Below, in pieces: positions 9,354 to 25,354 of a stretch of 34,185 nt of DNA (within the stretch, counting starts at the first letter, position 1; the number at the start of each line of letters is the position of its first letter). The translations under genes were made by a program, and so were the position numbers. Under the pieces are notes generated by a model. That model worked only from the letters and a program-made list of their open reading frames with translations, was not told where the DNA came from and searched no databases. This DNA is from Bacteroidales bacterium (GTDB lineage: Bacteria > Bacteroidota > Bacteroidia > Bacteroidales > JAADJA01): assembly GCA_030596605.1 (NCBI GenBank), contig JAUVJI010000034.1, positions 1-34,185 on the forward strand, read 5' to 3'.

Positions 9354-9380
9354 TGTCACAAATTTAATAGATGAGGTACT
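9354..9380 (+). promoter_or_regulatory. ECF-type promoter, site A (before 9460)
   Basis: TGTCAC (9354-9359), 17 nt, TACT (9377-9380). It is one of six sites with identical -35 hexamer and spacing. TAC lies 83 nt before the ATG of the T9SS cargo gene at 9460. Confidence 0.75.
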
Positions 9381-9459
9381 CATGGTGAATTTGTTACTAA
9401 AAGCACTGAAATTATGAGAATATCAAAACATATTGTTTAACCTTTAAAATTAAGACATC

Positions 9460-11133
9460 ATGAAAAATTTAAACTTTATTCTATCCAGTAAAATCACAAC
9501 TTTCATCTATTACATGTTTAACAATAAATTATGCATGAAATGTTTCTCAAGACCTTACCCGATTTCTTCTTTTACAAGAAATAATTACAGTTCAAATCAT
9601 CATTTGTCTGAATTGCTTATTAAAAATCTGAATTTCAGGAAAATATTTATTTTATTTTCAGTATTCATTATGTTGTATTTATACTATTCCAGGGATGTAA
9701 GGTCACAAGGTATTGAAACTCTATCTAACTCAAAACCTATTGAAAATAGTTTTGTTTCAATAAAACATTTTGATTCATACTATGATGTAGATGCTTTGAG
9801 GTATGATAATAGAACTAATCAATTATTACCATTATCATCCGAATATCCTCGAACTAAAGGTGTTGTAAATTCAATTTCGAATCAACCATATTATGCACAA
9901 ACTATTTTAGAAAAATCCTCAAATCTATTACATCAAAAAGATAATGATAAAAAAACTGAAGAAAAAGTTAATAGAGAAAGCACTTCAAAAGGATTGACAT
10001 TAATTATGTCAGAAGGATTTGAAGGATCCTTCCCAAATAGTTTATGGTCAGCAAATAGTAGTAGCGGTTATACAGATGCTTATTGGGATGATGCAACATG
10101 TAAAGATTATAATGGGAGTTATTCAGCACATTGTGCTGACATGGGAAGTCAGAGCGTTAGTTGCGGATATGATTATCCGAATGATATGAAAGCATATATG
10201 GTATATGGTCCATTTGATTTATCGAATGCAACTGATGCATATTTAAATTTTCATTGGTGGGCTCATACGGAATCAGATTATGACTATTTTCAGGTTATGG
10301 CTTCAAAAAACGGAACAAATTATTATGGGGTTCAATGGTCAGGTAACAATACCAACTGGTATCAGTACACTTTCGATTTAACAGATGTTTATACGATAGG
10401 AAATCTATGCGGGCAACAAGAGGTTTGGATTGCATTCTTTTTCCAAAGTGATTACACTGTTTCAGAACCTGAAGGTGCTTACGTCGATAATGTAGAATTG
10501 TGGAAATATTCCTCAACTCAATATGAGCCAGATTTGACCATAGCCAGTGGCAGTTTTAGTCCAAATCCAGTAAACATTGATGATTATTTAAGCATTGATG
10601 TTCAAATTAAAAATATTGGACTAGGTGCTGCAACCAGTTCCCGTATAGAATACTATCTTTTAATAGATCCTAGCAGTGGAGTTTATGATTGTTATTTAGG
10701 ATATGATTATGTTACTCTAGAACCTGGGGAAGCAGGTAACGAAACAATTACAATAGATCTGGAAAACATCAGTTGTATAAGTGGGGGCTATTATTATATT
10801 AGTGTATATTTTGTAGATGAAAACGAAGGAGAGTACCACATTACCCCTTTGGAAATTATGACTACTGGTATTTATGATAATACTTCTTTAGATCATTTAA
10901 TCAAAATCTATCCTAATCCTGTTGAAGATATTCTAACTATTGAAAATCAGCATGAAGAATTATCTGATAATATGAATATTATGATATGTGATTTAACAGG
11001 TAAACAAATTTTATCAAAACCTTTTCACAAAAAGATAACAAATCTTGATTTAAGTAAATTATTAACAGGTGTTTATTTTTTGAAAATTAGTAATGATAAT
11101 GATTTTATAACGGAAAAAATAATAAAAAAATAA
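9460..11133 (+). CDS. T9SS cargo protein with MAM-like and CARDB-like domains
   Basis: A 557-residue exported protein. Residues about 180-350 resemble the choice-of-anchor J/cleaved-adhesin (MAM-like) beta-sandwich: EGFEGSFPNSLW, DAYWDDATCKDYNGSYSAHC, YVDNVELWKY. Residues about 355-450 look like a CARDB Ig-like domain (PDLTIASGSFSPNPVNIDD). The C-terminus (about 485-557: LIKIYPNPVEDIL..., LTGVYFLKIS) is a T9SS type A sorting domain, so it should reach the cell surface. The N-terminus is odd: the hydrophobic segment (FRKIFILFSVFIMLYLYYS) starts only near residue 59, leaving an unusually long pre-signal region. Translation may begin further downstream at a non-ATG codon. No catalytic motif is seen; adhesion is the likeliest role. 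It has its own ECF-type promoter. Confidence 0.75.
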   Translation: MKNLNFILSSKITTFIYYMFNNKLCMKCFSRPYPISSFTRNNYSSNHHLSELLIKNLNFRKIFILFSVFIMLYLYYSRDVRSQGIETLSNSKPIENSFVSIKHFDSYYDVDALRYDNRTNQLLPLSSEYPRTKGVVNSISNQPYYAQTILEKSSNLLHQKDNDKKTEEKVNRESTSKGLTLIMSEGFEGSFPNSLWSANSSSGYTDAYWDDATCKDYNGSYSAHCADMGSQSVSCGYDYPNDMKAYMVYGPFDLSNATDAYLNFHWWAHTESDYDYFQVMASKNGTNYYGVQWSGNNTNWYQYTFDLTDVYTIGNLCGQQEVWIAFFFQSDYTVSEPEGAYVDNVELWKYSSTQYEPDLTIASGSFSPNPVNIDDYLSIDVQIKNIGLGAATSSRIEYYLLIDPSSGVYDCYLGYDYVTLEPGEAGNETITIDLENISCISGGYYYISVYFVDENEGEYHITPLEIMTTGIYDNTSLDHLIKIYPNPVEDILTIENQHEELSDNMNIMICDLTGKQILSKPFHKKITNLDLSKLLTGVYFLKISNDNDFITEKIIKK

Positions 11134-11186
11134 GTTCATTCCAGTGTAGCATCTATTACAAATTTTAACATAAAACACTATTAATC

Positions 11187-11216
11187 AGGGGCTGCTTTTT
11201 ATTCGAAGCAGTCTCT
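11187..11216 (+). terminator. Intrinsic terminator after the T9SS cargo gene
   Basis: An 11-bp stem (11187-11197 with 11206-11216, including two G-T pairs) surrounds an 8-nt loop and is followed by ATTTTAATATTT. It isolates the 9460 gene from the sigma operon. Confidence 0.75.
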
Positions 11217-11446
11217 ATTTTAATATTTCAATTGCTGATATTAAATATATTGTTTCCTATCCTACTAAAAAGAATTTCTTGAATAAATCCAACTAATTAT
11301 TCATATTCCGATAAATTCAATTGTCTCATAAAATTTTTTGCATATCTTTATGAGCCTAATCCACCAAAATGATAGCTTATTTAAGGAATATTGGCAGATT
11401 TCAGTTATATTTCAGAATTTCATTAAATAGAAATTTTATATTTAAC

Positions 11447-11473
11447 TGTCACATAATTTAAACTTTAGATACT
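11447..11473 (+). promoter_or_regulatory. ECF-type promoter, site B (sigma autoregulation)
   Basis: TGTCAC (11447-11452), 17 nt, TACT (11470-11473). The TAC is only 6 nt before the first ATG of the sigma gene, so the mRNA would be leaderless or translation would start at the second Met (11500). This site suggests that the sigma factor activates its own operon. Confidence 0.75.
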
Positions 11474-11475
11474 AT

Positions 11476-12066
11476 ATGTATAAATACTCAGAAAAAGAAA
11501 TGATTGATGGACTTATATCATGGGATGAAACAATTATTAAATATATAATTAAAATTAATTATCCTACAATAAAATCGATGGTACTTAAATACAGAAATAC
11601 GCTACTAAATCCTATGGAAATATTCCACAGAGGATTATACATTCTTAGAGATAATCTTTTAGAAAGTAAATTTAAAGGACAATCAATCATGTCAACGTAT
11701 TTGTACTCAATCTGTCGCAATCTATGCAGGAAAGAGTTCAAAAGGATGGAAGGATTTACAGAACTTTCTGACAATTATAAAGGTGAAACTTTTGATACAA
11801 GTGACAAAACTGAAATTTTAGATAAATTGCTAATTCTTAAAAATAAACTTTCGGAGGATTGTAAAGAAATTATTAATCTAAGGCTACGCATAGGTGAGCG
11901 AGACCCTGAATCAAGTGAATATAGATCATATGATGAAATAGCTCAAATTAGAAATATTGAAGTAGCTAATGCAAGACAACTATTTCATCGTTGTAAAGAA
12001 AAACTAATAAGCCTTGTAAAGGATGATCAATTTTTAAATAAATATTTAAAAAATAATGTTAAATAA
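11476..12066 (+). CDS. ECF RNA polymerase sigma factor
   Basis: This 196-residue sigma-70 family protein has region 2 at about 45-92 (FHRGLYILRDNLLE, then QSIMSTYLYSICRNLCRKEF) and region 4 at about 118-185 (KLSEDCKEIINLRL, SYDEIAQIRNIEVANARQLF with the HTH, then HRCKEKL). The size and lack of regions 1 and 3 fit the ECF class. The next gene, 9 nt away, encodes a one-TM anti-sigma-like protein, so its activity is probably controlled at the membrane. The autoregulatory promoter overlaps the first ATG. Met9 at ATG 11500, preceded by a purine-rich AGAAAAAGAA, is the better start if transcription begins at that promoter. I infer that it recognises TGTCAC-N17-TAC sites across 9.3-25.4 kb. Confidence 0.9.
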   Translation: MYKYSEKEMIDGLISWDETIIKYIIKINYPTIKSMVLKYRNTLLNPMEIFHRGLYILRDNLLESKFKGQSIMSTYLYSICRNLCRKEFKRMEGFTELSDNYKGETFDTSDKTEILDKLLILKNKLSEDCKEIINLRLRIGERDPESSEYRSYDEIAQIRNIEVANARQLFHRCKEKLISLVKDDQFLNKYLKNNVK

Positions 12067-12075
12067 AATATTGAG

Positions 12076-12807
12076 ATGGCTCTAAACAAAGAAGATATTA
12101 ATCTTATTAACAGGTATTTTGACAAAGAATTATCTTCCAAAGAAATTGAAGAATTCAATAAAAAAATACAACAAGATCCTGAATTTGCTGAAGAAATCAA
12201 CTTAAGGAAAGAAATTGAATTTCAATTACACAAAGTTGATGAATATGAGAAATCGAAAGATTTAGTGTATTCTTTAATATCAGAAAAACAGTCTATTTTT
12301 AGAAACTCCTGGACATATGTTGCCATTGCAGCATCAATTGCATTTCTTATCGGGATATATGTACTACTAAAACCGACTGAAAATGGAGTTGAAGATATTT
12401 TGATAACTGAAGAAATAACTGATAGCAACAACTTTATCACTCCACAATTCGATGAACTAGAATACAAAGCTGATCAATACTTTTACGAAAAATTTAAAAT
12501 CAATTCGGGTCAAATCATTGAAATTGGTTCCGCTGAATTTATACACTTAGATATTTTAAAAGATTCTATTGACATTGCAGATACTTCTCAAAAGGCCATA
12601 TACTTAACTGAGATTTACATTTATAAAACTGATCAGAAAATAGATACACTATTATATTTTACAAGTGATAATATTTCTAAAGGTAAGTATATTTATTTAA
12701 AGGACACTATTGTAGATGCTAAACTTTTTTGGCATGCAGAGGCTAAAGAAACAGGTGATGATATATTGATTTTAACCGAAAACATCAGAATAAAAAATAA
12801 AAGATAA
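12076..12807 (+). CDS. Anti-sigma factor, single-pass membrane protein
   Basis: The 243-residue protein starts with a short helical domain (about 5-55) with the pattern typical of Bacteroidota anti-sigma factors: LINRYFDKELSSKEIEEF, then QQDPEFAEEI. One TM segment follows (about 79-98, WTYVAIAASIAFLIGIYVLL), and the remaining 145 residues should be periplasmic. There is no zinc HxxxCxxC motif and no FecR domain signature, so sensing is not obviously tied to a TonB receptor. Position directly after the sigma gene and before a transglutaminase-like exported protein supports its role. Release of sigma could follow proteolysis or ligand binding in the periplasm; this is inference. Confidence 0.8.
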   Translation: MALNKEDINLINRYFDKELSSKEIEEFNKKIQQDPEFAEEINLRKEIEFQLHKVDEYEKSKDLVYSLISEKQSIFRNSWTYVAIAASIAFLIGIYVLLKPTENGVEDILITEEITDSNNFITPQFDELEYKADQYFYEKFKINSGQIIEIGSAEFIHLDILKDSIDIADTSQKAIYLTEIYIYKTDQKIDTLLYFTSDNISKGKYIYLKDTIVDAKLFWHAEAKETGDDILILTENIRIKNKR

Positions 12808-12821
12808 AAAATAGAAGTTGA

Positions 12822-14294
12822 ATGAAAATTATAATACTATATATAAAACAAAGTCTTATTACCCTAACTTTCCTTATTCAAGGTTATAGCTTCTGTCAAA
12901 AGGATACAAATGATATTGATTTTCAAAAACAATTTGATGATTTCAATAAAAGTATCACAAAAGAATTCTATGATTTTAAGAGCAAAAATGATTCTATATT
13001 TCTAAAATTTTTAGATGACTCCTGGCGGGAATTTAAAATGTTTCGAAATGACCGATCAGTAGTACCTAAACCAGAAAAACAACCTGTAGCAGAAGAAAAG
13101 ATTGACCAGGGATTTAAAATTCTTCCAAGAAAGAACGATAAATTAATTTATAACAATGGTAATGAACCAGAATATAATTTTGAAATAATTGATAAAATCA
13201 ACCTTAACGAATTTGATTGTACTAAACAGTTTGATTATTATGGATCAAATTTGAATAGTTATTATTCAAAGAAAGATTTACCGCAAGTTGATGAAATTTC
13301 AAAAGAAGCAGTTAGCCAGTTCTTTAGGCGAGCAATGTCTTCTAATAAATTGAATGGCACAATACAACTGTTAAAACAAACGGCAGACAGCTTAAAACAG
13401 AATGATTGGGGTTACATTTTATTACTAAAATCAGCAGCCCGGGAAATATTTGAATCACTCAATGATCAAAAACTGTTCATATGGTATGCTCTACTGAAAA
13501 ATTATAATGATGTAAAATCCGGATTAGATAAAAACAGGTTCTATTTGCTTGTTAACACCAGTCATGAGGTCTACAACACTTCATATTTTATCCTCAACAA
13601 TAAAAAATATTATCTGATTGCATTTGAGGATGACCCTGATGAGATTGCCATATTAATTTCGCATGAAGCGGAATATCCTAATGCGACTAATCAAATCTCT
13701 TTATTCTTGAAAGTAACTCCTTTGTTCATGCCAAATAATATTACTAGGTCATTTATTTTCAGGGATGATACATTTAATATACAAATTAATAAAAATCTCA
13801 TAGATTATTATAATGACTACCCTGATGCTGATTTAAATCTTTACTTCAGTACGCCTGTTTCCAATTCGATATTATATAAACTCCACGAATTCTTTAATGA
13901 TTTATTTATTGGTAAAAATCAAGTACAAATCATTGATATTTTGCTGGAATTTATTCAACTTTCGATTGCATATAAAAACGATATAGATCAATTTGGATAT
14001 GAAAAATATTTGTTTGCAGAAGAAACACTTTACTATCCGTACGCTGATTGCGAAGATAGGGCTGTTCTATTAGCAAGGTTAGTTATTTATTTTACAGATT
14101 TATCAACTGTAGGTCTGAGTTACCCTACTCATATTTCATTAGCTGTTGCTTTCAATGAAAAGATTCAGGGGGATTATCTTTTCTATAATGATAAAGAATA
14201 TTATATTTGTGATCCGACATACATTGGGGCCAAAAGTGGAAATGGTATGGAGGATTTAAGAAATGTACAACCAATAATAATTGATTATGAATAG
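12822..14294 (+). CDS. Exported transglutaminase-like cysteine hydrolase
   Basis: After a signal peptide (hydrophobic LITLTFLIQGYSFC), the 490-residue protein has a long unassigned part rich in Asp, Asn and Lys, and a C-terminal transglutaminase-like fold (about 390-490). The catalytic triad is visible: C410 in YADCEDRA, H437 in YPTHISLAVAF and D464 in ICDPTY. This superfamily includes papain-like peptidases, amidases and cross-linking enzymes, so the reaction cannot be named. It is third in the sigma operon, right after the anti-sigma gene, and its end overlaps the next gene by 8 nt. It could act on envelope proteins, or on the anti-sigma factor itself; that is a hypothesis. Confidence 0.75.
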   Translation: MKIIILYIKQSLITLTFLIQGYSFCQKDTNDIDFQKQFDDFNKSITKEFYDFKSKNDSIFLKFLDDSWREFKMFRNDRSVVPKPEKQPVAEEKIDQGFKILPRKNDKLIYNNGNEPEYNFEIIDKINLNEFDCTKQFDYYGSNLNSYYSKKDLPQVDEISKEAVSQFFRRAMSSNKLNGTIQLLKQTADSLKQNDWGYILLLKSAAREIFESLNDQKLFIWYALLKNYNDVKSGLDKNRFYLLVNTSHEVYNTSYFILNNKKYYLIAFEDDPDEIAILISHEAEYPNATNQISLFLKVTPLFMPNNITRSFIFRDDTFNIQINKNLIDYYNDYPDADLNLYFSTPVSNSILYKLHEFFNDLFIGKNQVQIIDILLEFIQLSIAYKNDIDQFGYEKYLFAEETLYYPYADCEDRAVLLARLVIYFTDLSTVGLSYPTHISLAVAFNEKIQGDYLFYNDKEYYICDPTYIGAKSGNGMEDLRNVQPIIIDYE

Positions 14295-15219
14295 GAATTT
14301 CATTTGCGAATCAATATCGAAATTATTCTTTACTTTTTTATTGGTATTAATTCACTCCTTTTTGTTTTGTCAAAACATTAATAAAGTTAAGGTAACCGGA
14401 AGCTATGAAATTAGAATAGAAACCAATATGACAAAGGAAGATACTCGCGAAAAAGCTAGGGAGTTAGCCATGATCAACGCAATAGAAAATGAATTTGGGA
14501 CATATGTTGGACAGGACGCAGATATTATGCTCGAAAATGGAAAAATGAGCTACAACATCATTGGAACAACAAAGGTAAGAGGCGAATGGATAAGGACAAT
14601 AGAGTGTAAGTTTGACGAAGCCAATCGTAAAATAGAAGGGCAATATGGTGATGAATACGAAACCTGGATAACATGTAATATTAAGGGAATTGCTAAAAGG
14701 GCAAAACCAAAAGCTAATATTGAATTTCAAACTTTAAATTGTCCTGATTCAAAATGTCGAACAACAAATTTTTTTTCCGGAGAGTCTTTGTACTTACATT
14801 TTAAAAGCCCGGAAAACGGATTCCTCAACATTTTCCTAAGTGATGGAACAACCGTTTTCAGATTACTGCCATATGACTATATGACTGATAATTATCTAAA
14901 AGCAGTATATGTAACCGGCGATAAAGAATATTTGTTCTTCTCAGAGGACAATCAATATTTTGATAGTGAAATCGTAGATGACTATGAACTGTTTACTTTA
15001 AAGGATAAGGAGTTTAATTCACTTTATATAGTTTTTGCTGAAGATGTTTATGCAAAACCAATGCTGGATAATAGCCAAGTTATCACAGAATATAAAGAAA
15101 ATTATCGGCTGCCTAAGTCCCTAGACCATGAAAATTTTATAGATTGGTTGTCAGATAATCGCGCTGTTATGGATAGTTTCCAGGTTCGAAAAATAAAAAT
15201 CAGTATATCAAAACAATAA
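14287..15219 (+). CDS. Exported FlgT/LPP20-like and DUF4384-like protein
   Basis: The frame runs back to a TTG at 14281, but the ATG at 14287, which overlaps the upstream stop (TATGAATAG), is the likely start. After the signal peptide (FTFLLVLIHSFLFCQ), residues about 30-130 show the pattern of repeated acid/base helix and strands seen in FlgT/LPP20-type domains (GSYEIRIETNMTKEDTREKA). The second half resembles DUF4384, with GESLYLHFKSPENGFLNIFL and SDGTTVFRLLP. DUF4384 is often found in, or encoded beside, caspase-family proteins, and an exported caspase is encoded about 2 kb downstream. Its role is probably scaffolding or sensing in the envelope. Confidence 0.65.
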   Translation: MNRNFICESISKLFFTFLLVLIHSFLFCQNINKVKVTGSYEIRIETNMTKEDTREKARELAMINAIENEFGTYVGQDADIMLENGKMSYNIIGTTKVRGEWIRTIECKFDEANRKIEGQYGDEYETWITCNIKGIAKRAKPKANIEFQTLNCPDSKCRTTNFFSGESLYLHFKSPENGFLNIFLSDGTTVFRLLPYDYMTDNYLKAVYVTGDKEYLFFSEDNQYFDSEIVDDYELFTLKDKEFNSLYIVFAEDVYAKPMLDNSQVITEYKENYRLPKSLDHENFIDWLSDNRAVMDSFQVRKIKISISKQ

Positions 15220-15228
15220 GGACTAACC

Positions 15229-16224
15229 ATGAAAAAAATAAAATTTCTAAAACAGACTTTTTCAGTATTGATATTTTATTGTATAATATCATTGATCATT
15301 AGTTGCGGGACTGATGATGAACCTTACATTTTACCAGAAGTTACTACTGTAAAACCAACAAGTATTAAGGCTACCACTGCAAAAAGTGGTGGAAACATAG
15401 CCAGCCAGGGTAGCTCTCCAATTACAGCATTTGGAGTTTGCTGGAGTACAGATAGTAGCCCTTCTCTATCCAATAAGTTGGGATCTACAAATGATGGCAG
15501 TGGAATAGGAAATTTCAGCAGCATTTTAGGAGAATTAATACCGGAAACATTTTATTATATTAAAGCTTATGCAACCAATAGCTCAGGTACAGCTTACGGA
15601 AATGCCGAGTCCTTTAAAACAGGTGGAATGATAACAGATATAGAAGGAAATGTTTACAATACAATTGAAATTGGTAATCAAACCTGGATGGCAGAAAACC
15701 TAAAAACAGCTACTTATAATGATGGAACAACAATTCCACTGATTACAAACGATAATCAATGGATAAATTTAACCACACCAGGTTATTGCTGGTATAATAA
15801 TGATGCAGGTACAAACAAAAACACTTATGGTGCAATATATAATTTTTATACTATAAACACAGGAAAGCTTTGCCCATCTGGCTGGCATGTACCAACCGAT
15901 GGAGAATGGACAATATTATCTGATTACCTGGGGGGAGATAGTATTGCCGGTGGGAAATTAAAAGAAGCAGGAACAACTCATTGGACATATCCCAATACCG
16001 GTGCTACCAACGAAAGTAATTTTTGGGCACTCCCTGGTGGTGTCCGTGTTGCATGGGATGGATTATTTTATGCAAGATATGAATTTGCTGGATGGTGGAC
16101 AGCTTCAGAAATGTCTTCAAATCATGCTTACGGTCGTTTTCTAAATTATGATGAAGTTGCTGTAAGCAAAAATGAATGGGTATCTAAAGCTTATGGATAT
16201 AGCGTCCGATGCATTAAAGATTGA
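15229..16224 (+). CDS. FISUMP-domain lipoprotein
   Basis: The signal peptide ends in a lipobox (LIISC, then GTDDEP). Residues about 35-130 form a fibronectin III-like domain (VTTVKPTSIKATTAKSGGNI, FYYIKAYATNSSGTAYG). Residues about 133-331 are a FISUMP domain, the Fibrobacter succinogenes major paralogous domain: IEIGNQTWMAENLKTA, LCPSGWHVPTDGEW, ESNFWALPGG, ending YSVRCIKD. FISUMP proteins are surface proteins of unknown biochemical function. It is the last gene of the sigma operon, 9 nt after the preceding stop, and has paralogs at 21377 and (truncated) at 20876. Confidence 0.9.
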   Translation: MKKIKFLKQTFSVLIFYCIISLIISCGTDDEPYILPEVTTVKPTSIKATTAKSGGNIASQGSSPITAFGVCWSTDSSPSLSNKLGSTNDGSGIGNFSSILGELIPETFYYIKAYATNSSGTAYGNAESFKTGGMITDIEGNVYNTIEIGNQTWMAENLKTATYNDGTTIPLITNDNQWINLTTPGYCWYNNDAGTNKNTYGAIYNFYTINTGKLCPSGWHVPTDGEWTILSDYLGGDSIAGGKLKEAGTTHWTYPNTGATNESNFWALPGGVRVAWDGLFYARYEFAGWWTASEMSSNHAYGRFLNYDEVAVSKNEWVSKAYGYSVRCIKD

Positions 16225-16304
16225 AGTTTGGATAATAAATTTTCTTAAATGGATTCGATAAAATCCACATCTTAAATAAAAAATCTAAGTTTCTTATTTA
16301 ATGT

Positions 16305-16331
16305 TGTCACATTTATAATATATATGGTACA
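16305..16331 (+). promoter_or_regulatory. ECF-type promoter, site C (before 16385)
   Basis: TGTCAC (16305-16310), 17 nt, TACA (16328-16331). TAC is 57 nt before the ATG at 16385. The extended -35 is TTGTCACA. Confidence 0.75.
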
Positions 16332-16384
16332 AACAATTGTATAAATTAATTAATATAAATATTTAATAATTAAAAACATTAAAA

Positions 16385-17032
16385 ATGAAAAAATTAGCAC
16401 TAATTTCAGCAATCGGCTTATTATTAATGGCAATGTTAAATCCATTAACAGCACAAACCACAGAAAAAGAAGCCAATAAAGAAGTTAAATCAAAAGCCAC
16501 TAAAAAGGCCAGGAAGGAAGCTAAAAAGCTTAAAAAAGAGGGCTATTTTGTTGCTCCTGGGGCTTTACCAATTGACAAACAACTTGAAAATGCCTGGACA
16601 AAACAATACATGCAGGATGAAGAAGGATATCCTTTGTATATTGTTGCAACCGGTCAGTCTGTTGGCGAAACACAAACCGCTGCCAAAATTCAGGCTACGG
16701 AGACAGCCAAGCTTGAACTGGCAGGAACCATTAGAACCAATGTAGCGGCACTAATTGAGAATAATATTGCAAACATGCAGCTTAATAATGAAGAAGCCTT
16801 ATCTATTACAAAAACTGTTGCAGCAGCTAAAAACATTATTGCAGAGGAATTGGGCAGGGTGATACCTCTGGTAGAATTGTATAAGAAGATCGATAAAAAT
16901 GTTGAAGCAAATGTTCGTTTAGCATATGATAGCAAAACAGCTAAAGAAGCTGCTAAAAGAGTTATCCGCAAAAAACTTGAAGAAGAAACAGATCTATTAC
17001 AAGAAAAACTCGAAAAATTAATGAATTTTTAA
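16385..17032 (+). CDS. Exported LPP20-like protein
   Basis: The 215-residue protein has a signal peptide (MKKLALISAIGLLLMAMLNP, cleaved near TAQ), a Lys-rich stretch (about 34-56, KKARKEAKKLKKEG) and then an LPP20-like core (about 80-190): LYIVATGQSVGETQTAAKIQ, with helices of repeated Ala and Thr and a hydrophobic strand pattern. There is no lipobox, so it is probably periplasmic. The C-terminus is a charged helix (KKLEEETDLLQEKLEKL). It has its own ECF-type promoter and lies upstream of the exported caspase gene, separated by a hairpin that may let only part of transcription through. Function unknown. Confidence 0.65.
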   Translation: MKKLALISAIGLLLMAMLNPLTAQTTEKEANKEVKSKATKKARKEAKKLKKEGYFVAPGALPIDKQLENAWTKQYMQDEEGYPLYIVATGQSVGETQTAAKIQATETAKLELAGTIRTNVAALIENNIANMQLNNEEALSITKTVAAAKNIIAEELGRVIPLVELYKKIDKNVEANVRLAYDSKTAKEAAKRVIRKKLEEETDLLQEKLEKLMNF

Positions 17033-17137: not shown

Positions 17138-18817
17138 ATGAAAAAGCAATTTCTACTCCCGATCCTGATAACATTGATGTCATACAACCTTTTTCCCCAA
17201 GTTGTTACGGGAGTCAGTGAATCCAAGTTTGTTAATATTACAAGTGAACCGCTTCAACCTCCTTTTATTGAAATAGAAAAGGAAAGTCTCAGGTTTACTG
17301 ACATTAATGACAATAATATCATTGATGCAAATGAAACATCTTATCTTCATTTTACAGTTAGAAATACAGGACAGGGTCCAGGCCTTAACCTGAGAGTTAT
17401 GCTTCAGGAAACAGGGAATAAAAGTGGCCTGGAATATGACAAAGAAACATCCTTAGGTTCATTGCCTTCCGGTGAATCCCTGGATGTGAAACTGCCAATT
17501 TCTGCTGATATGTCACTTCTGGATGGCTTAGTCACCTTCAATATTCGTATTGAAGAGACCAATGGTTTTGGTACTGATCCTATACCGATGCAGGTACAAA
17601 CTAAAAAGTTTGCTTCTCCTTTGATAAAAGTTGTTGATTATAGCATAACAAGTAAAAGTGGAACAACAATTCAGAAAAAAGTAACTTTCGGCTTGCAGGC
17701 TCTGGTTCAAAATATTGGACAGGGAATGGCAGAAGATGTAACTGTTAACGTTATTTTTCCTGAAAACATTTACTGTTTATCAAATAACCAAACAGTTTAT
17801 ATCAATAACCTTCTCGCAGGTCAGCAACAAGTAATTGAATATTCACTTGTTACAACTATTAACTATTCAAGCACAGAAATTCCTATTACATTTGAAATGA
17901 ATGAAAAACTTGGTGAATATGCCGAAAACTATTCTCTCACTTTAGCAATGAATCAGGCTGTTTCAAATGAAAAGATTGTTGTGCAAGGAAAAGAAGAAGA
18001 AGATAAAATAATTGTATTCGGTTCACTCACCTCCATTGTAGATAAAGATATACCCATTAATAGGTCAAAAAATCCAAACAGGATTGCATTGATTATTGGT
18101 AATGAAGATTATTCTGAAAATTTAAATCCAGAGGTTAATGTTCCATACGCAATATCAGATGCAAGTATCTTTAAAGAATACGCAGTTAAAACGCTGGGAG
18201 TTGAAGAAAAGAACACCTTTTTGTGTTTAAATGCAACAGCTGGTAAGATGCAGGCTGAGATCGAACGGATTGCTTTGCTTGCTCAAATGATTGATAATGC
18301 CGAACTAATATTCTACTATGCAGGGCATGGATTTCCCGATGAATCCACGAATATTCCATATCTTATTCCTGTTGATGTAACTGCCGCCAATCTGGGATCA
18401 GCAATTCGGTTATCAGATGTGTATGAAAGATTTGCGAATACAGGTGCAAAAAGAATAACCGTTTTCCTGGATGCTTGTTTTTCAGGAGGTGGCAGGAATC
18501 AAGGATTATTGGCTGCCAGAAGCATAGCAATAAAACCAAAAGATGAGCGAGTTAGTGGCAATATGGTTGTTTATGCAGCAAGTACAGGCGAGCAATCAGC
18601 CTTACCATATGAAGAAGAGAAACATGGAATGTTCACCTATTTTCTGTTAAAAAAATTACAGGAAACCAAAGGAGATATAACCTATTCTGATCTTGCTGAG
18701 TATTTAAAGCAAAATGTATGTGTAGAATCGCTACGAGTTAATCGCAGAGAACAGGATCCTATTATCACTGCTAGTCCTTCTGTTACGGAAATTTGGAAAG
18801 ATTGGTCGTTTAAATAA
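17138..18817 (+). CDS. Exported caspase (C14-like) with two Ig-like domains
   Basis: The 559-residue protein has a signal peptide (MKKQFLLPILITLMSYNLFP) and two CARDB-like Ig domains (about 45-160 and 165-275; TSYLHFTVRNTGQGPGL and LQALVQNIGQGMAEDVT). The caspase domain is about 310-545: RIALIIGNEDYS, FYYAGHGFPDE with H397, and TVFLDACFSGGG with C447. The catalytic His-Cys dyad is intact. Late elements (VVYAASTGEQSALPYEEEKH, MFTYFLLKKLQ) match bacterial caspase-family proteins. Most such bacterial proteins are Arg/Lys- or Asp-specific proteases, but specificity is not readable here. An exported caspase acts outside the cytoplasm. It lies after the LPP20-like gene and before two barrel paralogs, and within the ECF segment. 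Confidence 0.85.
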   Translation: MKKQFLLPILITLMSYNLFPQVVTGVSESKFVNITSEPLQPPFIEIEKESLRFTDINDNNIIDANETSYLHFTVRNTGQGPGLNLRVMLQETGNKSGLEYDKETSLGSLPSGESLDVKLPISADMSLLDGLVTFNIRIEETNGFGTDPIPMQVQTKKFASPLIKVVDYSITSKSGTTIQKKVTFGLQALVQNIGQGMAEDVTVNVIFPENIYCLSNNQTVYINNLLAGQQQVIEYSLVTTINYSSTEIPITFEMNEKLGEYAENYSLTLAMNQAVSNEKIVVQGKEEEDKIIVFGSLTSIVDKDIPINRSKNPNRIALIIGNEDYSENLNPEVNVPYAISDASIFKEYAVKTLGVEEKNTFLCLNATAGKMQAEIERIALLAQMIDNAELIFYYAGHGFPDESTNIPYLIPVDVTAANLGSAIRLSDVYERFANTGAKRITVFLDACFSGGGRNQGLLAARSIAIKPKDERVSGNMVVYAASTGEQSALPYEEEKHGMFTYFLLKKLQETKGDITYSDLAEYLKQNVCVESLRVNRREQDPIITASPSVTEIWKDWSFK

Positions 18818-18856
18818 CATTGTTACAATGGAAATTTAATCAAATATAACCATAAA

Positions 18857-19846
18857 ATGAAAACAGGAATATTCAACGGTTTAAAAGTAAGAACTATATT
18901 AATAGTAATCTTCCTGACCACATTTCATATTCTTTCTGCTCAACAAGTAAAAAATGTCACTTTCGAGCAAAGGGATAAAAAAATAGCAATTTCATACGAT
19001 ATTGAGAATGAAAATAATCTTGACACTTATGATGTAAAAATTTACTACAGTATTGATGACGGTTTGTTCTGGATAGGACCGTTGCAATATATTTCAGGTG
19101 ATACTGGTTCAGAAATTAAACCGGGAAAAGCTAAAATTATAATTTGGGATGTTTTAAGTGAAACCACAAATTTGATTGGCAACCTTCAATTTAAGATTAC
19201 AGCTAAAGTTCATTATGTTATGGACAAAAGTTATTGGAAAACGTTTTATCAATATATGATAGGTATTAAGTCCGGTCTAAATATAGCCAAGCAGGTGGGT
19301 TATATGGATGACTATTCAAAATCTCTCGTGGGTTTTAACATAGGAGTATTTCACAGATTTAATGGGGACGGCCTTGTTTCAATCCAGCAGGAGATACTAT
19401 TTGACCGTAAAGGATCCAAATATAATTTATCTGAAATTTCGTACAATAATAATAATTATACTACTTATTTTGATTATCTTTCAATCAATCCGATCATTGT
19501 TCAAATTAATATCAGAAAGACCAGTCCGAGGATTTATCCTGAATTAGGATTATCAATTGGAGTCCTGTTTAATCGCAATAAAATTGCTGATTCTTATGAT
19601 ATTGTTGAAAGTGAGGTGGAACCGCTTGAAAGTGGTGACTATGAACAAGTAAATGTACAAGCTTTTGCTGGTATAGGTATAATTGTCTATAACCGAAAAA
19701 ATTGTATCTCATTTAGCTTAAGATATTGTTATGGAATTAGTGGTATTTATGATAATAATGGTTTAAGTTATTATGATTCATATCAATCGGATAATATACA
19801 AAAATACAATAGAGGTTTTTCTATAAATATGGGAATTTTATTTTAG
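18857..19846 (+). CDS. Beta-barrel protein with N-terminal Ig-like domain, copy 1
   Basis: After the signal peptide (RTILIVIFLTTFHILSAQ), residues about 30-115 form an Ig-like domain with VKNVTFEQRDKKIAISYDI, YSIDDGLFWIGPLQYISGD and GKAKIIIWDVLSE. Similar domains are attached to other exported Bacteroidota proteins. The rest (about 125-329) is a PorT-like eight-strand outer-membrane barrel (YMIGIKSGLNIAKQVGYMDD, ending NRGFSINMGILF). The next gene is a paralog. The Ig-like domain is more conserved between the two than the barrel, so the former may carry the shared interaction. No promoter of the ECF type is visible just upstream, so transcription probably comes through from the caspase gene. 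Confidence 0.75.
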   Translation: MKTGIFNGLKVRTILIVIFLTTFHILSAQQVKNVTFEQRDKKIAISYDIENENNLDTYDVKIYYSIDDGLFWIGPLQYISGDTGSEIKPGKAKIIIWDVLSETTNLIGNLQFKITAKVHYVMDKSYWKTFYQYMIGIKSGLNIAKQVGYMDDYSKSLVGFNIGVFHRFNGDGLVSIQQEILFDRKGSKYNLSEISYNNNNYTTYFDYLSINPIIVQINIRKTSPRIYPELGLSIGVLFNRNKIADSYDIVESEVEPLESGDYEQVNVQAFAGIGIIVYNRKNCISFSLRYCYGISGIYDNNGLSYYDSYQSDNIQKYNRGFSINMGILF

Positions 19847-19848
19847 AA

Positions 19849-20790
19849 ATGATACTCATGCGAACTATATATAATTTCAAACATAATAGGACAGTAGTAA
19901 TTTTAGCAATATTTATTTTATTATACCAGCCATTTATAAAAGCTCAAAAAGTAGAAAATGTAACATTTGAACAAACGAATAAAAATATAGCAATCTCTTA
20001 TGATATAGAGGAAGAAAAAAACATCGACACATATGATATAAAGATTTTCTATAGCATTGATGATGGTTTATCATGGAAAGGGCCTTTGCAATATGTGTCA
20101 GGTGATGTGGGAGAGTCACAAAAGGCAGGAAAAGCTAAAACCATCATTTGGGATGTTTTAAAAGAAACAACCGAACTAACTGGTAATGTGAAATTTCAAA
20201 TAAAAGCTAAGCCACATTATATTGACAAAAAATCCATAGAGAAATCCAGGAAATATATGATAGGATTTAAAGGTGGTTTGAACATTTCAAAACGGCTTAA
20301 TTATATTGAAGTTTATATCAAATCAAAAACTGGTTTTAACATAGGTATGTTTCATAAATTCCAGTTTAATAATGTTTTAGGATTTCAGTCTGAATTGTTA
20401 TTTGACCGCAAAGGATACACTTTTGATCTCTCACTTTATGGAGAAGATGAGTTATATCCTGTAAACATTGATTATTTTTCTGTAATTCCATTTTTATTTA
20501 ATCCATCATTCGGATCAAGAAATACCAAGTTTTATTTTGAATTAGGTCCATTTTTGGAAGTTCTTTTAACACAAAAGAAACTTTATCCTGTCCTGGAACA
20601 AATTGAAGAAGAATTTAATATTCCTAACATGGATACCTGGTATTCAGCAGCTGATTGTGGATTGATTTTAGGTGCAGGACTAGCATTTTATACAAATAAA
20701 TCATGCGTTATTTTAAATTCACGGTATAGTCAGGCATGGGTAAATGGTACAAGCAGTTGTTTTTCATTTAATGTTGGTATTTTATTTTAG
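19849..20790 (+). CDS. Beta-barrel protein with N-terminal Ig-like domain, copy 2
   Basis: This tandem paralog begins 2 nt after the preceding stop; the ATG at 19858 is an alternative start. The signal peptide (TVVILAIFILLYQPFIKAQ) and Ig-like domain closely match copy 1: VENVTFEQTNKNIAISYDI, YSIDDGLSWKGPLQYVSGD and GKAKTIIWDVLKE. The barrel shares the YMIGFKGGLNISKRLNYIE start and the SFNVGILF end but differs in its loops. Duplication followed by divergence of the surface-exposed part is the simplest explanation. Confidence 0.75.
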   Translation: MILMRTIYNFKHNRTVVILAIFILLYQPFIKAQKVENVTFEQTNKNIAISYDIEEEKNIDTYDIKIFYSIDDGLSWKGPLQYVSGDVGESQKAGKAKTIIWDVLKETTELTGNVKFQIKAKPHYIDKKSIEKSRKYMIGFKGGLNISKRLNYIEVYIKSKTGFNIGMFHKFQFNNVLGFQSELLFDRKGYTFDLSLYGEDELYPVNIDYFSVIPFLFNPSFGSRNTKFYFELGPFLEVLLTQKKLYPVLEQIEEEFNIPNMDTWYSAADCGLILGAGLAFYTNKSCVILNSRYSQAWVNGTSSCFSFNVGILF

Positions 20791-20875
20791 TAAAATGAAA
20801 CTATTTATAGGCTTAATTATATTATTAACATGTATAAATTATATCAGAGGGAAAAACATATTTTTAAAACATGAA

Positions 20876-21265
20876 ATGATGAAAAAATTATCCCTATTAT
20901 TCTTTTGCTTCACAATAATTATATCAATATTGATATGCTATGGATGTAAAAAAGATCCGGTGGTACCAACTATTGAAACAATTACTGCTACAAATATAAC
21001 ATCAACTTCTGCTATTAGTGGTGGAACTATAAGAAGTAATGGTGGAGCAGATATTATAGAAAGTGGCATTATGTATACAATTCCCAATACAATTACTACT
21101 TGGGGAGTCCTCTGGCACAAATCAGGTGATGGAACTAAAATGGGTTCATTCACAAGTACATTGACAGGATTATCATCTGATCCAACTTGTAGCTACCAAG
21201 CTTATGCTGAGAATAGTGCTGGTACAGGCTATGGTGAGATGAAAACCTTTACAACTTTTCCATAG
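20876..21265 (+). CDS. Short lipoprotein, FISUMP paralog lacking the FISUMP domain
   Basis: The frame extends upstream to 20744, but that part overlaps the preceding gene. The start is the tandem ATG-ATG at 20876/20879, giving a lipobox signal peptide (MMKKLSLLFFCFTIIISILI, cleaved before C in CYGCKKD). The mature part (about 100 residues) is a single fibronectin III-like domain (TIETITATNITSTSAISGGT, YQAYAENSAGTGYGEMKTF). The 15229 and 21377 proteins have the same domain followed by FISUMP, while this one stops at KTFTTFP. It may be a decayed copy or a domain used alone. Confidence 0.65.
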   Translation: MMKKLSLLFFCFTIIISILICYGCKKDPVVPTIETITATNITSTSAISGGTIRSNGGADIIESGIMYTIPNTITTWGVLWHKSGDGTKMGSFTSTLTGLSSDPTCSYQAYAENSAGTGYGEMKTFTTFP

Positions 21266-21376
21266 GATGAAGAGGTTGTTAAAATATAGTTTTAAAAAGT
21301 GGAAGATTTTAACAAGATTTCTATTCTAATTCAAATATTGAGGATGTTTACAATTAAACTAATAAATTATTATACT

Positions 21377-22348
21377 ATGAAACGATTAATCTATTACGCT
21401 TTAATTCCTATTGTAGTTATATTGTTGACAATGTGTAGTTCAGACGATCCTCCATTTATTGCTCCGGAAGTTGAAATCAAGGGTATTACATATTTAACTT
21501 CAACCAGTGCTGAATGTGAATGGGAATTAATTAAAAGTGGCAGTTCTGATGTTACAGCCTGCGGCATATGTTGGAACACAACCGGAAATCCCTCCTTAGA
21601 CAATTACGAAAGAAAAACAACAGACAATGTCGAAATAGGAGTTCTTAAAAGCACTCTTTCAAGCTTGGCACTGGAAGAAACTTATTTTGTAGTAGCCTAT
21701 GCGACAAATGAACGAGGAACAGGTTATGGAGATATATTAAGTTATGATCATGCATACGAATGTGGATTATCAATTGAATACTCCGGTAAAATTTATGAAA
21801 CTGTGGAAATAGACAACCAATGCTGGTTTAAGGAAAACCTTAATATTGGAACAAGAATAGAGGGATCAGATTATCCGTCAAATAACACTACTATTGAAAA
21901 ATATTGTTATAATAACTATGAGACCAACTGTGGTATTTACGGAGGTCTTTACAAATGGGACGAAATGATGCAATACGTTACAACAGAAGGCACCCAGGGC
22001 ATTTGCCCTGGAGGTTGGCATGTGCCAACTTCAAACGAGTGGCAATTATTAGTCAATAATTTAGGTGGTATTTACAATGCAGGTAAAAAACTTAAAATGA
22101 CCGGAACACAGTATTGGCAAGCTCCAAATAGTGCAACAAATGAAAGTGGATTTTCAGCATTACCAGGTGGGTATAAACTTTCTCATAGCAATTATTATGA
22201 AGAAAAAAATGAATCCGCCTACTTTTATACATCAAGTCCAGATTGGGATGAATGGAGGTTTATAAGTCTTTCTTCAGGCAGTTCATCAGTATATACAAAT
22301 ACTACATCACTGGCAGCATTTTCTGTCAGATGCATCAAAGATCAATAG
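21377..22348 (+). CDS. FISUMP-domain lipoprotein, second full copy
   Basis: The frame starts at GTG 21299, but the ATG at 21377 gives a proper lipobox signal peptide (MKRLIYYALIPIVVILLTMC). It contains a fibronectin III-like domain (about 25-125: SAECEWELIKSGSSDVTACG, YFVVAYATNERGTGYG), then FISUMP (about 140-324): VEIDNQCWFKENLNIGT, GICPGGWHVPTSNEW, NESGFSALPGGYKLS, FSVRCIKDQ. It has extra Cys (CYNNYETNC, CGLSI) compared with the 15229 paralog, so disulfides are likely. It is followed by the O-antigen ligase-like gene. Confidence 0.85.
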   Translation: MKRLIYYALIPIVVILLTMCSSDDPPFIAPEVEIKGITYLTSTSAECEWELIKSGSSDVTACGICWNTTGNPSLDNYERKTTDNVEIGVLKSTLSSLALEETYFVVAYATNERGTGYGDILSYDHAYECGLSIEYSGKIYETVEIDNQCWFKENLNIGTRIEGSDYPSNNTTIEKYCYNNYETNCGIYGGLYKWDEMMQYVTTEGTQGICPGGWHVPTSNEWQLLVNNLGGIYNAGKKLKMTGTQYWQAPNSATNESGFSALPGGYKLSHSNYYEEKNESAYFYTSSPDWDEWRFISLSSGSSSVYTNTTSLAAFSVRCIKDQ

Positions 22349-22361
22349 ATTAATTCACATT

Positions 22362-24221
22362 GTGAAAGATTTGAGGATTTTCTCCAGAGTATTTCTGTGG
22401 ATATTATTTTATCCGATAACATTAATATTTACATATAAAAATCTCGATCCGGGATTGCATATTAAGTTTTTGGCACTTTGTATTTGCAACTTTATATTGC
22501 TAACCTACTTAATAATTACTCGAAATAAATATCAACCAACTAAAATTCTCCATTCTATTATTAATAATAAAATAGTATTTGCCTATGTTGCATTTCTTAT
22601 ATTCCTGTTTATAAGTGCTTTAAATTCAAGAAATAACTCAGATGCTCTAATTGAACTTTCGAGATTTATTTCATATTTAGTACTTATAGTTTTTTTGACC
22701 ATTATTTATATTAATAATCAAAGTACTTTCTTGGATCAAATAGTGAAAATTGTTATTACACTTAGCTTCATTACTGTAAGTTTGTCACTTTTTCAAATGA
22801 TTACCGGGGTATTTAGATTGGGTTTTCAAAATTTTAATCAACTTTATGAAGTCCATAGTATCTTTCAACACAGAAATCTCTTTGCTCAAATCCTATTTCT
22901 TTCCATTCCTTATACTTTGTATGGTGCTTCATTTACACCAACAAAATTCTGGAGAATTTTTGCCAAGGTGGTTTCAGTTCTTATTCTGGCATTAATTATA
23001 ATTTTAGGTTCCAGAGCAGTGTGGTTGGCATTTTTCACATTTTTTACGTGTATATTAATAATTTTAGTTGCAAATCAAAATCTAAGAAAAAGTGTAAGTA
23101 CGATTTTAAAAAGTAGAAGCTTACTATTGATTATCCTCACTTCAATAATTATTTCAAGTAGCTTTTTTATTTATTTCGGATCGTTCAATAAAATAGAATT
23201 GGATGATGAATATAAAGAGCTATTAAATACATTATCAGTTACAGATAGGATTGAACTTTGGAAGAAATCATTTAATCTTATAAAAGAAGCACCTGTTTTA
23301 GGACATGGTTTGGGAAGTTGGAAGATTGAAATACTTCGTTTTGGCAATCAAGGTTTGATATCGGAGAATAACAGGACTTTTTATCAACGTCCTCATAATG
23401 ATTACATTTCATTGCTCTCAGAATCAGGCATAATAGGTTTAATACTATACCTTTCAATCTTTATTTTATTAATACAAAGTCTATTAAGGAATTTAATAAT
23501 CAATCATTCAAAAGAACAGGTTTTGTTTAATTTATTACTAATATCCACATTGCTCGGTTATCTTACATTTTCATTTTTTAGTTATCCTAAAGACCGTGTT
23601 ATTCAAAACATTTATATATCTTCAACAATTGTTTTTGCCATTATTCAGGAAAAGAAGAAATATTCATTTGTTAGATTAAATAAAACATTTTTATATTGCA
23701 TAATTTCATTCATCATAATAATCATTATTTTATTTCTATTTCTGTCATATTCCAGGTTTACATCAGAAAAACATATTTATACTATTCATAATCATAAAAA
23801 CTCAAAGGAGTGGTATAAAATTCATTGGGAGGTTGATGCTGCCAAAACCCTTTTCTGTAAATTGGATCAGTTTACAGCTCCTTTAGATTTTTATTCTGGA
23901 TTGGCGAGCATTCAAATGGGCAATTTTTCAGATGCAAAGGAATATTTGACTTCAGCTATCAACCTGAATCCATATCATGTAGATTTATTGAACAATCTTG
24001 GAATAACCTATATGCATAATGAGGAAATGGAAAATGCAATGAAAATGTTTCGAAAGGGTTTACAAATAGCACCAAATCATCAGGAATTAAATCTAAGTCT
24101 TGCTTATGCCTATTACTTAAATAAAGATTATAATGACGCCTTGATACAGTTGAAGCGAGTTACTAAACTTGATTCTCATCCAATTTACAGGTTTTTAATT
24201 GGAGAACTTAAACAGAATTGA
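22362..24221 (+). CDS. O-antigen ligase/polymerase-like membrane protein with TPRs
   Basis: This 619-residue protein starts at a GTG. Residues about 10-500 have ten or more TM segments. The Wzy_C/WaaL-like region has the large periplasmic loop with GHGLGSWKIEILRFG and the signature RPHNDYISLLSESGIIG (near 342-358), followed by TM segments. Residues about 505-610 are TPR-like helices (LASIQMGNFSDAKEYLTSAI, LNNLGITYMHNEEMENAMKM). It probably joins or polymerises surface glycan. In T9SS bacteria, A-LPS carries cargo, so a ligase here would fit. Whether it makes LPS or another glycan is open. Its start is 13 nt after the FISUMP stop, suggesting an operon. Confidence 0.8.
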   Translation: MKDLRIFSRVFLWILFYPITLIFTYKNLDPGLHIKFLALCICNFILLTYLIITRNKYQPTKILHSIINNKIVFAYVAFLIFLFISALNSRNNSDALIELSRFISYLVLIVFLTIIYINNQSTFLDQIVKIVITLSFITVSLSLFQMITGVFRLGFQNFNQLYEVHSIFQHRNLFAQILFLSIPYTLYGASFTPTKFWRIFAKVVSVLILALIIILGSRAVWLAFFTFFTCILIILVANQNLRKSVSTILKSRSLLLIILTSIIISSSFFIYFGSFNKIELDDEYKELLNTLSVTDRIELWKKSFNLIKEAPVLGHGLGSWKIEILRFGNQGLISENNRTFYQRPHNDYISLLSESGIIGLILYLSIFILLIQSLLRNLIINHSKEQVLFNLLLISTLLGYLTFSFFSYPKDRVIQNIYISSTIVFAIIQEKKKYSFVRLNKTFLYCIISFIIIIIILFLFLSYSRFTSEKHIYTIHNHKNSKEWYKIHWEVDAAKTLFCKLDQFTAPLDFYSGLASIQMGNFSDAKEYLTSAINLNPYHVDLLNNLGITYMHNEEMENAMKMFRKGLQIAPNHQELNLSLAYAYYLNKDYNDALIQLKRVTKLDSHPIYRFLIGELKQN

Positions 24222-24380
24222 GTTTATTGCAGGACTCTGTAATCGATAAATAACAATGTGCTATTTTTCGCAAACCTATCTGCGTTGATTGATAGCATTT
24301 GGTCGTTACAGGCAATTTCATTCTATTTTATAAGTTCCATCTAATATTTAGGTTCACTTCATTTTATTTTAAGATTTTAT

Positions 24381-24407
24381 TGTCACAATATATGCCTCCA
24401 GATTACT
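24381..24407 (+). promoter_or_regulatory. ECF-type promoter, site D (before 24444)
   Basis: TGTCAC (24381-24386), 17 nt, TACT (24404-24407). TAC is 40 nt before the ATG at 24444, with GGAGG (24435-24439) in between. Confidence 0.75.
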
Positions 24408-24443
24408 AACTAATGTATTTAACTAATTAAAATTGGAGGAAAA

Positions 24444-24767
24444 ATGAAAACAACAAAAATTTTTTTAGTAATCGCAATTTTTTCATTTGCGACTATGGGA
24501 TTTTCTCAGAAGCATGGCGCTAATAAAGCGTTGTCTGTAAGAATATCCCTAAACTGTGCTCAACAAAACTTTGGTCTCGTTGTAGCCATGTACCATCAAC
24601 TTAATGATGATTTTTTGCAAAATGAAACGAATGGTTATTATGTTGCTCAGGTCATCTACAAGAACACACCTTATTTGATCTATGGTAATCTGCAGGAATG
24701 GAAACTCTTTTTCTCAAGAGACATTCATGATTATGCAGTAAAGATGAATCAACAGTTACCTGATTGA
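24444..24767 (+). CDS. Small exported protein, new family member 1
   Basis: A 107-residue protein with a strong Shine-Dalgarno GGAGG (24435-24439) 4 nt before its ATG and an ECF-type promoter. Signal peptide MKTTKIFLVIAIFSFATMGF, cleaved near SQ. The mature protein has a single Cys (C38) in VRISLNCAQQNFGLVVAMY, then NDDFLQNE, AQVIYKNTPYLIYGNLQEW and KLFFSRD. Much of this pattern is shared with the 24964 product, but I do not recognise it as a known family. A good terminator follows (24790-24817), so it is a one-gene transcript. Likely periplasmic or secreted. Confidence 0.75.
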   Translation: MKTTKIFLVIAIFSFATMGFSQKHGANKALSVRISLNCAQQNFGLVVAMYHQLNDDFLQNETNGYYVAQVIYKNTPYLIYGNLQEWKLFFSRDIHDYAVKMNQQLPD

Positions 24768-24789
24768 AAAATTAAGCGAGGTTAATAGT

Positions 24790-24827
24790 AAGGCCATCTC
24801 AAGTTTGAGATGGCCTTGTTTATTTTA
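24790..24827 (+). terminator. Strong intrinsic terminator after small protein 1
   Basis: A perfect 12-bp stem, AAGGCCATCTCA (24790-24801) and TGAGATGGCCTT (24806-24817), with a 4-nt loop and GTTTATTTTA after it. Confidence 0.9.
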
Positions 24828-24886
24828 AGCAGGATTTTCTATCAATATTAATAATAAGGGTTATGCTTCCAAAACACGGTCTAATT

Positions 24887-24913
24887 TGTCACAACTCTCT
24901 ATCTAAAGCTACT
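24887..24913 (+). promoter_or_regulatory. ECF-type promoter, site E (before 24964)
   Basis: TGTCAC (24887-24892), 17 nt, TACT (24910-24913). TAC is 54 nt before the ATG at 24964. It lies too close to the alternative start at 24919 (9 nt) and so supports 24964. Confidence 0.75.
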
Positions 24914-24963
24914 AATAAATGAAATCAGCAATTAAAATCAACTTTAAAAGATGGAGGTTTAAA

Positions 24964-25275
24964 ATGGAAAATACTTTATTTCTTACAGGATTCATAATTA
25001 TTGTATTCGTTATTATAGCTACTAAAGAATTAAAATTTATAAATCGGCAGATGAATTTGAAAATTCCATTGAGTTGTGCAGTACATGACCTAGCACTTGT
25101 AAATGCAATGCATTCTCAAGTCAATTTTGATTTTTTGCTAAGGGACGAATCAAAGATTGAAGGTTTTAATGCTCAGATATACTATTATCAAAAGCATTAT
25201 AACATTTCAGGCACTTTTGAGGAATGGACTTTATTTTTCAATGGAAGTGAATTGTTATCCAATATGGTTGTTTAG
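24964..25275 (+). CDS. Small membrane-anchored protein, new family member 2
   Basis: The start is the ATG at 24964, because GGAGG (24953-24957) and ECF site E fit it; the frame extends to 24919. The 103-residue protein has an N-terminal hydrophobic segment (LFLTGFIIIVFVIIAT) without a clear cleavage site, so it is probably anchored. The rest matches the 24444 product: KIPLSCAVHDLALVNAMHSQ, then NFDFLLRDE, GFNAQIYYYQKHYNISG and EEWTLFF. Shared positions include the Cys-Ala, the AM-x2-Q-x-N-x-DFL run and the EW-x-LFF end. I cannot name the family. Confidence 0.75.
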   Translation: MENTLFLTGFIIIVFVIIATKELKFINRQMNLKIPLSCAVHDLALVNAMHSQVNFDFLLRDESKIEGFNAQIYYYQKHYNISGTFEEWTLFFNGSELLSNMVV

Positions 25276-25327
25276 TATAAACCAAAAATAACAGTTACTC
25301 TTTTATTAGATATAAATAGAATTTTAA

Positions 25328-25354
25328 TGTCACTTTCTGCTCGTTATAGTTACA
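25328..25354 (+). promoter_or_regulatory. ECF-type promoter, site F (before 25405)
   Basis: TGTCAC (25328-25333), 17 nt, TACA (25351-25354). TAC is 54 nt before the ATG at 25405. Confidence 0.75.

Follow-up and report, generated by a model that had tools for sequence, protein, structure and literature searches.

In a 34,185-nucleotide stretch of DNA from a Bacteroidales bacterium (GenBank assembly GCA_030596605.1, contig JAUVJI010000034.1, hereafter the window), the gene of an extracytoplasmic function (ECF) sigma factor at 11476–12066 is accompanied by six copies of a short two-block element. This element, TTGTCACA-N16-TAC(T/A), is very probably a promoter read by the sigma factor and its close relatives, and would serve a small, mostly local envelope regulon. 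In the proposed circuit, a membrane anti-sigma factor encoded beside the sigma gene probably holds the sigma factor until an envelope signal, presumably, releases it. The freed sigma factor would then transcribe its own operon, which encodes the anti-sigma factor, a LapG-like protease, a DUF4384-like protein and a FISUMP lipoprotein, as well as the genes of an LPP20-like protein and a caspase, with a cargo protein of the type IX secretion system (T9SS), two small paralogues and a thioredoxin-like protein as added targets in the source genome. The -35 sequence TGTCACA would be read by the second helix of region 4.2, which bears an Asn-Ala-Arg-Gln/Lys signature. We infer that the element functions as a promoter, that the sigma factor acts on it directly, and that the feedback transcript gives a low yield of sigma factor. 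Beyond the original prediction of a local ECF regulon, the additions are the arrangement at the sigma start codon and the ECF41-like helix.

Occurrence of the element in the window and in relatives

An exact scan of both strands for TGTCAC-N17-TAC returned the six sites originally reported, all on the plus strand with exactly 17 nt between the blocks, and no others in the window. Five of them read TGTCACA, the exception being the site at 25328 (TGTCACT). The chance expectation of about 0.1 for nine fixed bases was reproduced by the mean of 100 shuffles (0.10), of which the largest count was 2 and none (0/100) reached six; with one mismatch tolerated, nine matches were found against 3.89 expected, so that only the exact class stands out. 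The window makes up contig C108 entirely; the assembly to which it belongs (4.34 Mb, 88% complete) holds 17 exact sites, of which the window has six, along with 12 matches to the reversed pattern. All six sites lie between open reading frames (ORFs) taken as genes and are directed at the following gene, namely a T9SS-tailed gene at 9460 (site 9354–9379), the sigma gene (11447–11472), the LPP20-like gene (16305–16330), a small gene at 24444 (24381–24406), its second paralogue (24887–24912) and the thioredoxin-like gene (25328–25353). This intergenic placement, also part of the original prediction, is refined at two sites: only 3 nt separate the end of the 11447 site from the ATG of the sigma gene, and the ORF that follows 24887 has two possible starts, one at 24919, which is 6 nt past TAC, and a more plausible one at 24964, preferred by eye for its preceding GGAG.

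The 11476 ORF scores above the cut-off of the general ECF model TIGR02937 (46.9 against 42.9 bits) and matches ECF sigma factors of the PDB by profile. Its distribution is patchy, since a match at E <= 1e-20 is present in 7 of 393 genomes of the order, the source genome included, and in 2 of the 16 genomes of one family. Relatives were sought with a six-member alignment in a contig collection of 84,980 species by means of two peptide patterns, a scan that is incomplete yet blind to upstream DNA. It yielded 26 relatives, 18 strong (E <= 4e-25) and 8 weak, the strong ones all being from metagenome assemblies of Bacteroidota or 'Chlorobiota'. Seven loci (L102, L103, L107, L109, L112, L114 and L115) resemble sigma genes matched in other scans and were counted once; L114 equals L112 around the element and was excluded from column counts, helix rows and tree rows, and L106 has no upstream DNA, leaving 17 of the 18 strong relatives testable.

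At the sigma gene of all 17 testable strong relatives (32-39% identical), the exact TGTCACA-N16-TAC was found on the plus strand. Over the 17 sequences of the column counts, TGTCACA and TAC are invariant and G precedes TAC in 13, while median identity has fallen to 38% in the 16-nt spacer and to 30% in the 60 nt before the element. The element was found at the sigma gene of 0/8 weak relatives, 0/29 wider homologues in the class, and 0/20 other ECF genes of the source genome (one with just 110 nt upstream), and a more divergent relative, L078, carries TGTAACA-N16-TAC at its sigma gene. Viral contigs gave 33 pattern matches and no relative. The same element thus marks the sigma operon and the targets and tracks the sigma gene across genomes, as is characteristic of an autoregulated regulon.

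The neighbourhood of the sigma gene is also retained among the 18 strong loci. A homologue of the anti-sigma gene follows the sigma gene in 15/18 (BLAST); in L107 and L113 a similar ORF without a match takes its place, the contig of L119 is cut there, and in L103 the anti-sigma gene is the last of the operon. A LapG-like protease gene is present in 15/18 loci and a DUF4384-like gene in 10/18, many of the contigs being short. Where 0.10 further sites would be expected, these loci contain 11, ten of them on the sigma strand. The element precedes all five LPP20-like genes flanking the sigma loci, and other flanking sites lie ahead of genes for a caspase (L108), a FISUMP protein (L106) and a lipoprotein (L116), and ahead of the protease gene (L104). 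The sole extra site opposite to the sigma strand (L118:16492-16517) lies inside an ORF. Another exact TGTCACA-N16-TAC (L104:9553-9578) stands some 390 nt before the sigma start; no ORF was called immediately behind it, and it possibly belongs to a small RNA or to a second promoter of the sigma operon.

On other contigs of sigma-positive genomes, sites stand before more LPP20-like, caspase and FISUMP genes; these stretches were picked for holding a site, and the LPP20-like genes there are a biased sample. A comparison of genomes with and without the sigma factor, as originally proposed, agrees with the element depending on it. An LPP20-like gene occurs in 38/393 genomes of the order, and from these, 29 relatives' loci plus a second copy (G098:C65) were examined. 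The exact site was found at 3/29 loci (G003, G098 and G230), and at 0/24 of those whose genomes have no sigma match at E 1e-9, to be set beside the 17/17 strong relatives with the element at the sigma gene; the locus of G289 has no exact site. G003 was considered as a genome with the site and without the sigma gene, and this was rejected, the contig (C64) breaking inside a DUF4384-like gene of the same cluster, so that the sigma gene is possibly unassembled.

Several observations weigh against a sigma-specific regulon promoter. In sigma-positive G062, the LPP20-like gene has CAC for TAC, and in G098, also sigma-positive, the second LPP20-like copy is without a site. The sites at 9354, 24381, 24887 and 25328 have no conserved counterpart, homologues of their target genes not having been found beside relatives' sites. 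The element crowds the sigma start codon, many sites elsewhere fall inside ORFs, and the motif is not in clear genome-wide excess. The scan of the whole genome that the original prediction called for placed 6 of 17 exact sites in the window, and over 19 sigma-positive genomes TGTCACA-N16-TAC totalled 88 matches against 76 for a backwards control; a large genome-wide regulon was rejected on this count, and the regulon looks small in view of it. A bare pattern match is uninformative without its place, because the nine-base pattern is matched somewhere in 17/17 genomes of the genus. The original claim that the sigma factor activates all the targets is supported by relatives at two sites, those of the sigma gene and the LPP20-like gene, and is plausible from the motif for the other four. 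An identical TGTCACT-N16-TAC pair 1252 bp apart (L005/L006, G000:C104), found identically in G001, is apparently a repeated element outside this regulon.

The -35 sequence and the region 4.2 helix

The promoter of ECF41 sigma factors is TGTCACA-n16-CGTC, and these proteins possess a fused C-terminal regulatory domain (PMC3426412). The element of the window has the same -35 sequence and the same 16-nt spacer after TGTCACA, so that of two promoter differences from ECF41 originally named, the -10 (TAC, not CGTC) stands and the spacer does not. Membership of the protein in ECF41 was rejected, in accordance with the original view that it lacks the C-terminal extension. It scores 15.1 bits against a cut-off of 323.25 with TIGR02957 / SigJ, only residues 151-178 matching, and at 196 aa it stops after region 4 with no fused domain. 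The window and 17/17 relatives have TAC in place of CGTC, and the tree places ECF41 on a separate branch from this family plus its sisters (100/100), within which this sigma family is not resolved as one clade.

The region 4.2 helix contains the residues that may account for the shared -35. All 18 rows of this sigma family have NAR[QK], and L078, with TGTAACA, has NARV. Nine ECF41 proteins collected from 296 genomes of the phylum, six of them above the family cut-off, have [NHT]CR[QK], with Arg-Gln/Lys at matching places in 9/9. TGTCACA-N16-CGTC occurs in 7/9 of their loci; no site was found within 600 nt upstream of the nine ECF41 genes, the seven exact sites being elsewhere in the 3.8-kb loci on either strand. 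Among wider homologues of the sigma factor, the closest (profile E 1e-25 to 1e-16) form a sister Bacteroidota ECF family (L163-L185) with GGTTAC-N15-17-TAT upstream in 14/29 loci and NAK[TN] in the helix in 9/15 rows. The Arg-Lys pair alone is insufficient, given that the sisters L159 and L160 carry it in the helix and have no site. A short-peptide search of the PDB with the helix returned only two unrelated chains. Taken over both lineages, we infer that ECF41 and this family converged on one -35 via the same helix residues.

The element and the start codon of the sigma gene

At 22 target sites with a clear next gene, the leader from TAC to the start codon is 21-103 nt. For three of these a downstream start was chosen (window 24964, L187:2354 and L190:3070), the first starts giving 6, 55 and 76 nt; left out of the set were L104:9553, L118:16517, the second L188 site, L192, L189 and L193-L205, most of which are inside ORFs or before unrelated genes. 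None of the 18 sigma genes, that of the window among them, has its best-placed start further than 6 nt past TAC. An ATG lies 2-6 nt past TAC in four (window, L103, L109 and L117), three have a TTG or GTG that overlaps the element (L108, L111 and L116), and in 11 the best start is an ATG that precedes the entire element and reads through it in frame. In two subgroups the position of this upstream ATG is fixed amid varying bases (-22 in 4/4, and -14 in 5/5 chosen members). A search of the DNA before the sigma start for the housekeeping promoter TAnnTTTG found it in 4/17 against 18% by chance, which gives no support for one.

ECF promoters usually start transcription 5-9 nt after the -10. If the start here is likewise 5-9 nt past TAC, the 5' end of the sigma-dependent RNA would fall within the coding sequence of the sigma factor or on its AUG, and the RNA would carry the anti-sigma and later genes intact. 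Simple positive autoregulation of the sigma factor is doubtful, because the element overlaps or crowds its start codon; the feedback transcript may yield anti-sigma factor and little sigma factor. It is quite possible, and proposed here tentatively, that the promoter over the sigma start forms a self-limiting circuit favouring the anti-sigma factor and the protease, and that a change of Lys-Thr/Asn to Arg-Gln in the helix shifted recognition from GGTTAC to TGTCACA, in convergence with ECF41.

The same geometry allows other readings of the feedback transcript. Ordinary positive autoregulation through a leaderless or near-leaderless transcript starting at the sigma AUG is possible, if somewhat doubtful: the ATG 2-6 nt past TAC in the window, L103, L109 and L117 would suit it, as would the sister family, in which an in-frame GTG stands 5-6 nt past TAT at 10 of 14 sites, though nine of the ten are from one family (f159). 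Against it, the best start is upstream of the element in 11/18 genes or overlaps it in three, and the upstream ATG is held in place while the bases around it vary. A shortened sigma factor made from a later start codon appears unlikely. An in-frame ATG, GTG or TTG does occur 26-60 nt past TAC in 13/18 sigma genes, as in the leaders of targets, and Streptomyces SigR offers a sigma factor with two start points (PMC5472188); no such codon exists in the other five (L102, L103, L104, L108 and L116), and where present its place varies, most are TTG, and several would cut the conserved N-terminal segment.

A more general objection is that the sites could be the operator of another regulator, encoded elsewhere and controlling both the sigma operon and the same targets, as binding by the sigma factor is deduced from sequence and an element that at most sigma genes falls within the ORF or at its border is odd for a sigma-gene promoter. 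We consider this very improbable. Two short blocks at fixed spacing and in one orientation, 21-103 nt before 22 starts, have the geometry of an ECF promoter; the -35 and the 16-nt spacer are those of the mapped ECF41 promoter (PMC3426412), the helix residues fit the -35, and the sites track the sigma gene across genomes. If the promoter over the sigma start is real, it would constitute a simple form of feedback that raises the brake and not the driver.

Products of the cluster and comparison with known systems

The cluster is encoded on the plus strand, and most of its products begin by eye with a signal peptide or a lipoprotein-like segment, for which reason an envelope role is likely. The gene adjoining the sigma gene (12076–12807) encodes a probable membrane anti-sigma factor, with a single hydrophobic stretch near residue 80-96 in 16/16 relatives including the window, and a weak zf-HC2 match in 6/16. 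It is followed by a probable periplasmic LapG/transglutaminase-like cysteine protease (12822–14294), in which C410, H437 and D464 are invariant in 12/12 sequences; its predicted model (mean pLDDT 81) has LapG as the top fold match (E 0.02), and Transglut_core is matched in 1/12 sequences, at 0.012. A DUF4384-like exported protein (14281–15219; 19.1 bits, under the Pfam cut-off) and a FISUMP-domain lipoprotein (15229–16224; PF09603, 137 bits) come next. The exported protein at 16385–17032, a target by virtue of the sites at relatives' copies, retains its LPP20-like label with weak support, as Foldseek placed Tip-alpha and Lpp20 on top (best E 2.7e-3; predicted model with pLDDT 86) and a Pfam search matched no family. 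Located 3' of it is an exported caspase of family C14 with a CARDB repeat (17138–18817; PF00656, 63 bits).

Among the presumed targets, earlier labels hold for the T9SS-tailed exported protein at 9460–11133 (TIGR04183, 50.3 bits), for the small exported protein at 24444–24767 and its paralogue at 24919–25275 (38% over 68 aa, E 2e-13), and for the thioredoxin-like protein at 25405–25965, which is redoxin/TlpA-like (PF00578, 39.2 bits). Upstream of the cluster, positions 4460-8917 encode a T9SS-tailed protein of 1485 aa that has a von Willebrand-like match; no site precedes its gene. Downstream, a tRNA-Asp gene on the minus strand (26121-26196) overlaps an 83-bp tandem array (26169-26537; 4.5 copies, 94% matches), each unit of which is the 5' part of the tRNA-Asp gene joined to a different G+C-rich inverted repeat.

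Sequence alone here gives a sigma factor, its promoter, a probable anti-sigma factor and targets, in an arrangement kept among relatives just 32-39% identical. Exported LapG-like proteases, caspases and LPP20-like proteins thereby gain a regulatory context, and with two separate sigma lineages sharing a -35 and helix residues, specificity for the -35 can be tested directly by swapping residues in laboratory reporters. A literature search, covering titles and abstract openings with most subscription papers outside reach, returned no description of this system, and no paper combining TGTCACA, Bacteroidales and promoter.

Among known systems, ECF41 is similar in the identical -35 TGTCACA, the 16-nt spacing and the Arg-Gln/Lys of the region 4.2 helix, whereas the present sigma factor is a 196-aa protein with no fused domain, an anti-sigma neighbour, the -10 TAC(T/A) and a separate branch (100/100). 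The sister family likewise has its element near the sigma start, but differs in the -35 (GGTTAC), the -10 (TAT), the helix (NAK[TN] in 9/15) and the presence of a site in 14/29 loci. In sigH-rshA of Corynebacterium glutamicum, a sigma-dependent promoter within the sigma coding region drives the anti-sigma gene and not the sigma gene (PMC3489674); the likeness would lie in a promoter inside the sigma gene that serves the anti-sigma factor, while that system is actinobacterial with an rshA-only transcript, and here the element occupies the gene's 5' end. Streptomyces sigR-rsrA combines an unusual sigma start, two promoters, isoforms and anti-sigma factor in excess (PMC5472188); the unusual sigma start is shared, whereas sigR starts at a non-canonical GTC codon and has its autoregulatory promoter ahead of the gene. 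Both systems are precedents for an anti-sigma factor kept in excess. Finally, Porphyromonas gingivalis SigP, compared by its description (PMC4800418), is another Bacteroidota ECF sigma factor tied to type IX secretion, but it governs secretion components below a two-component system, whereas the present one is associated with one T9SS cargo and an anti-sigma factor in its operon.

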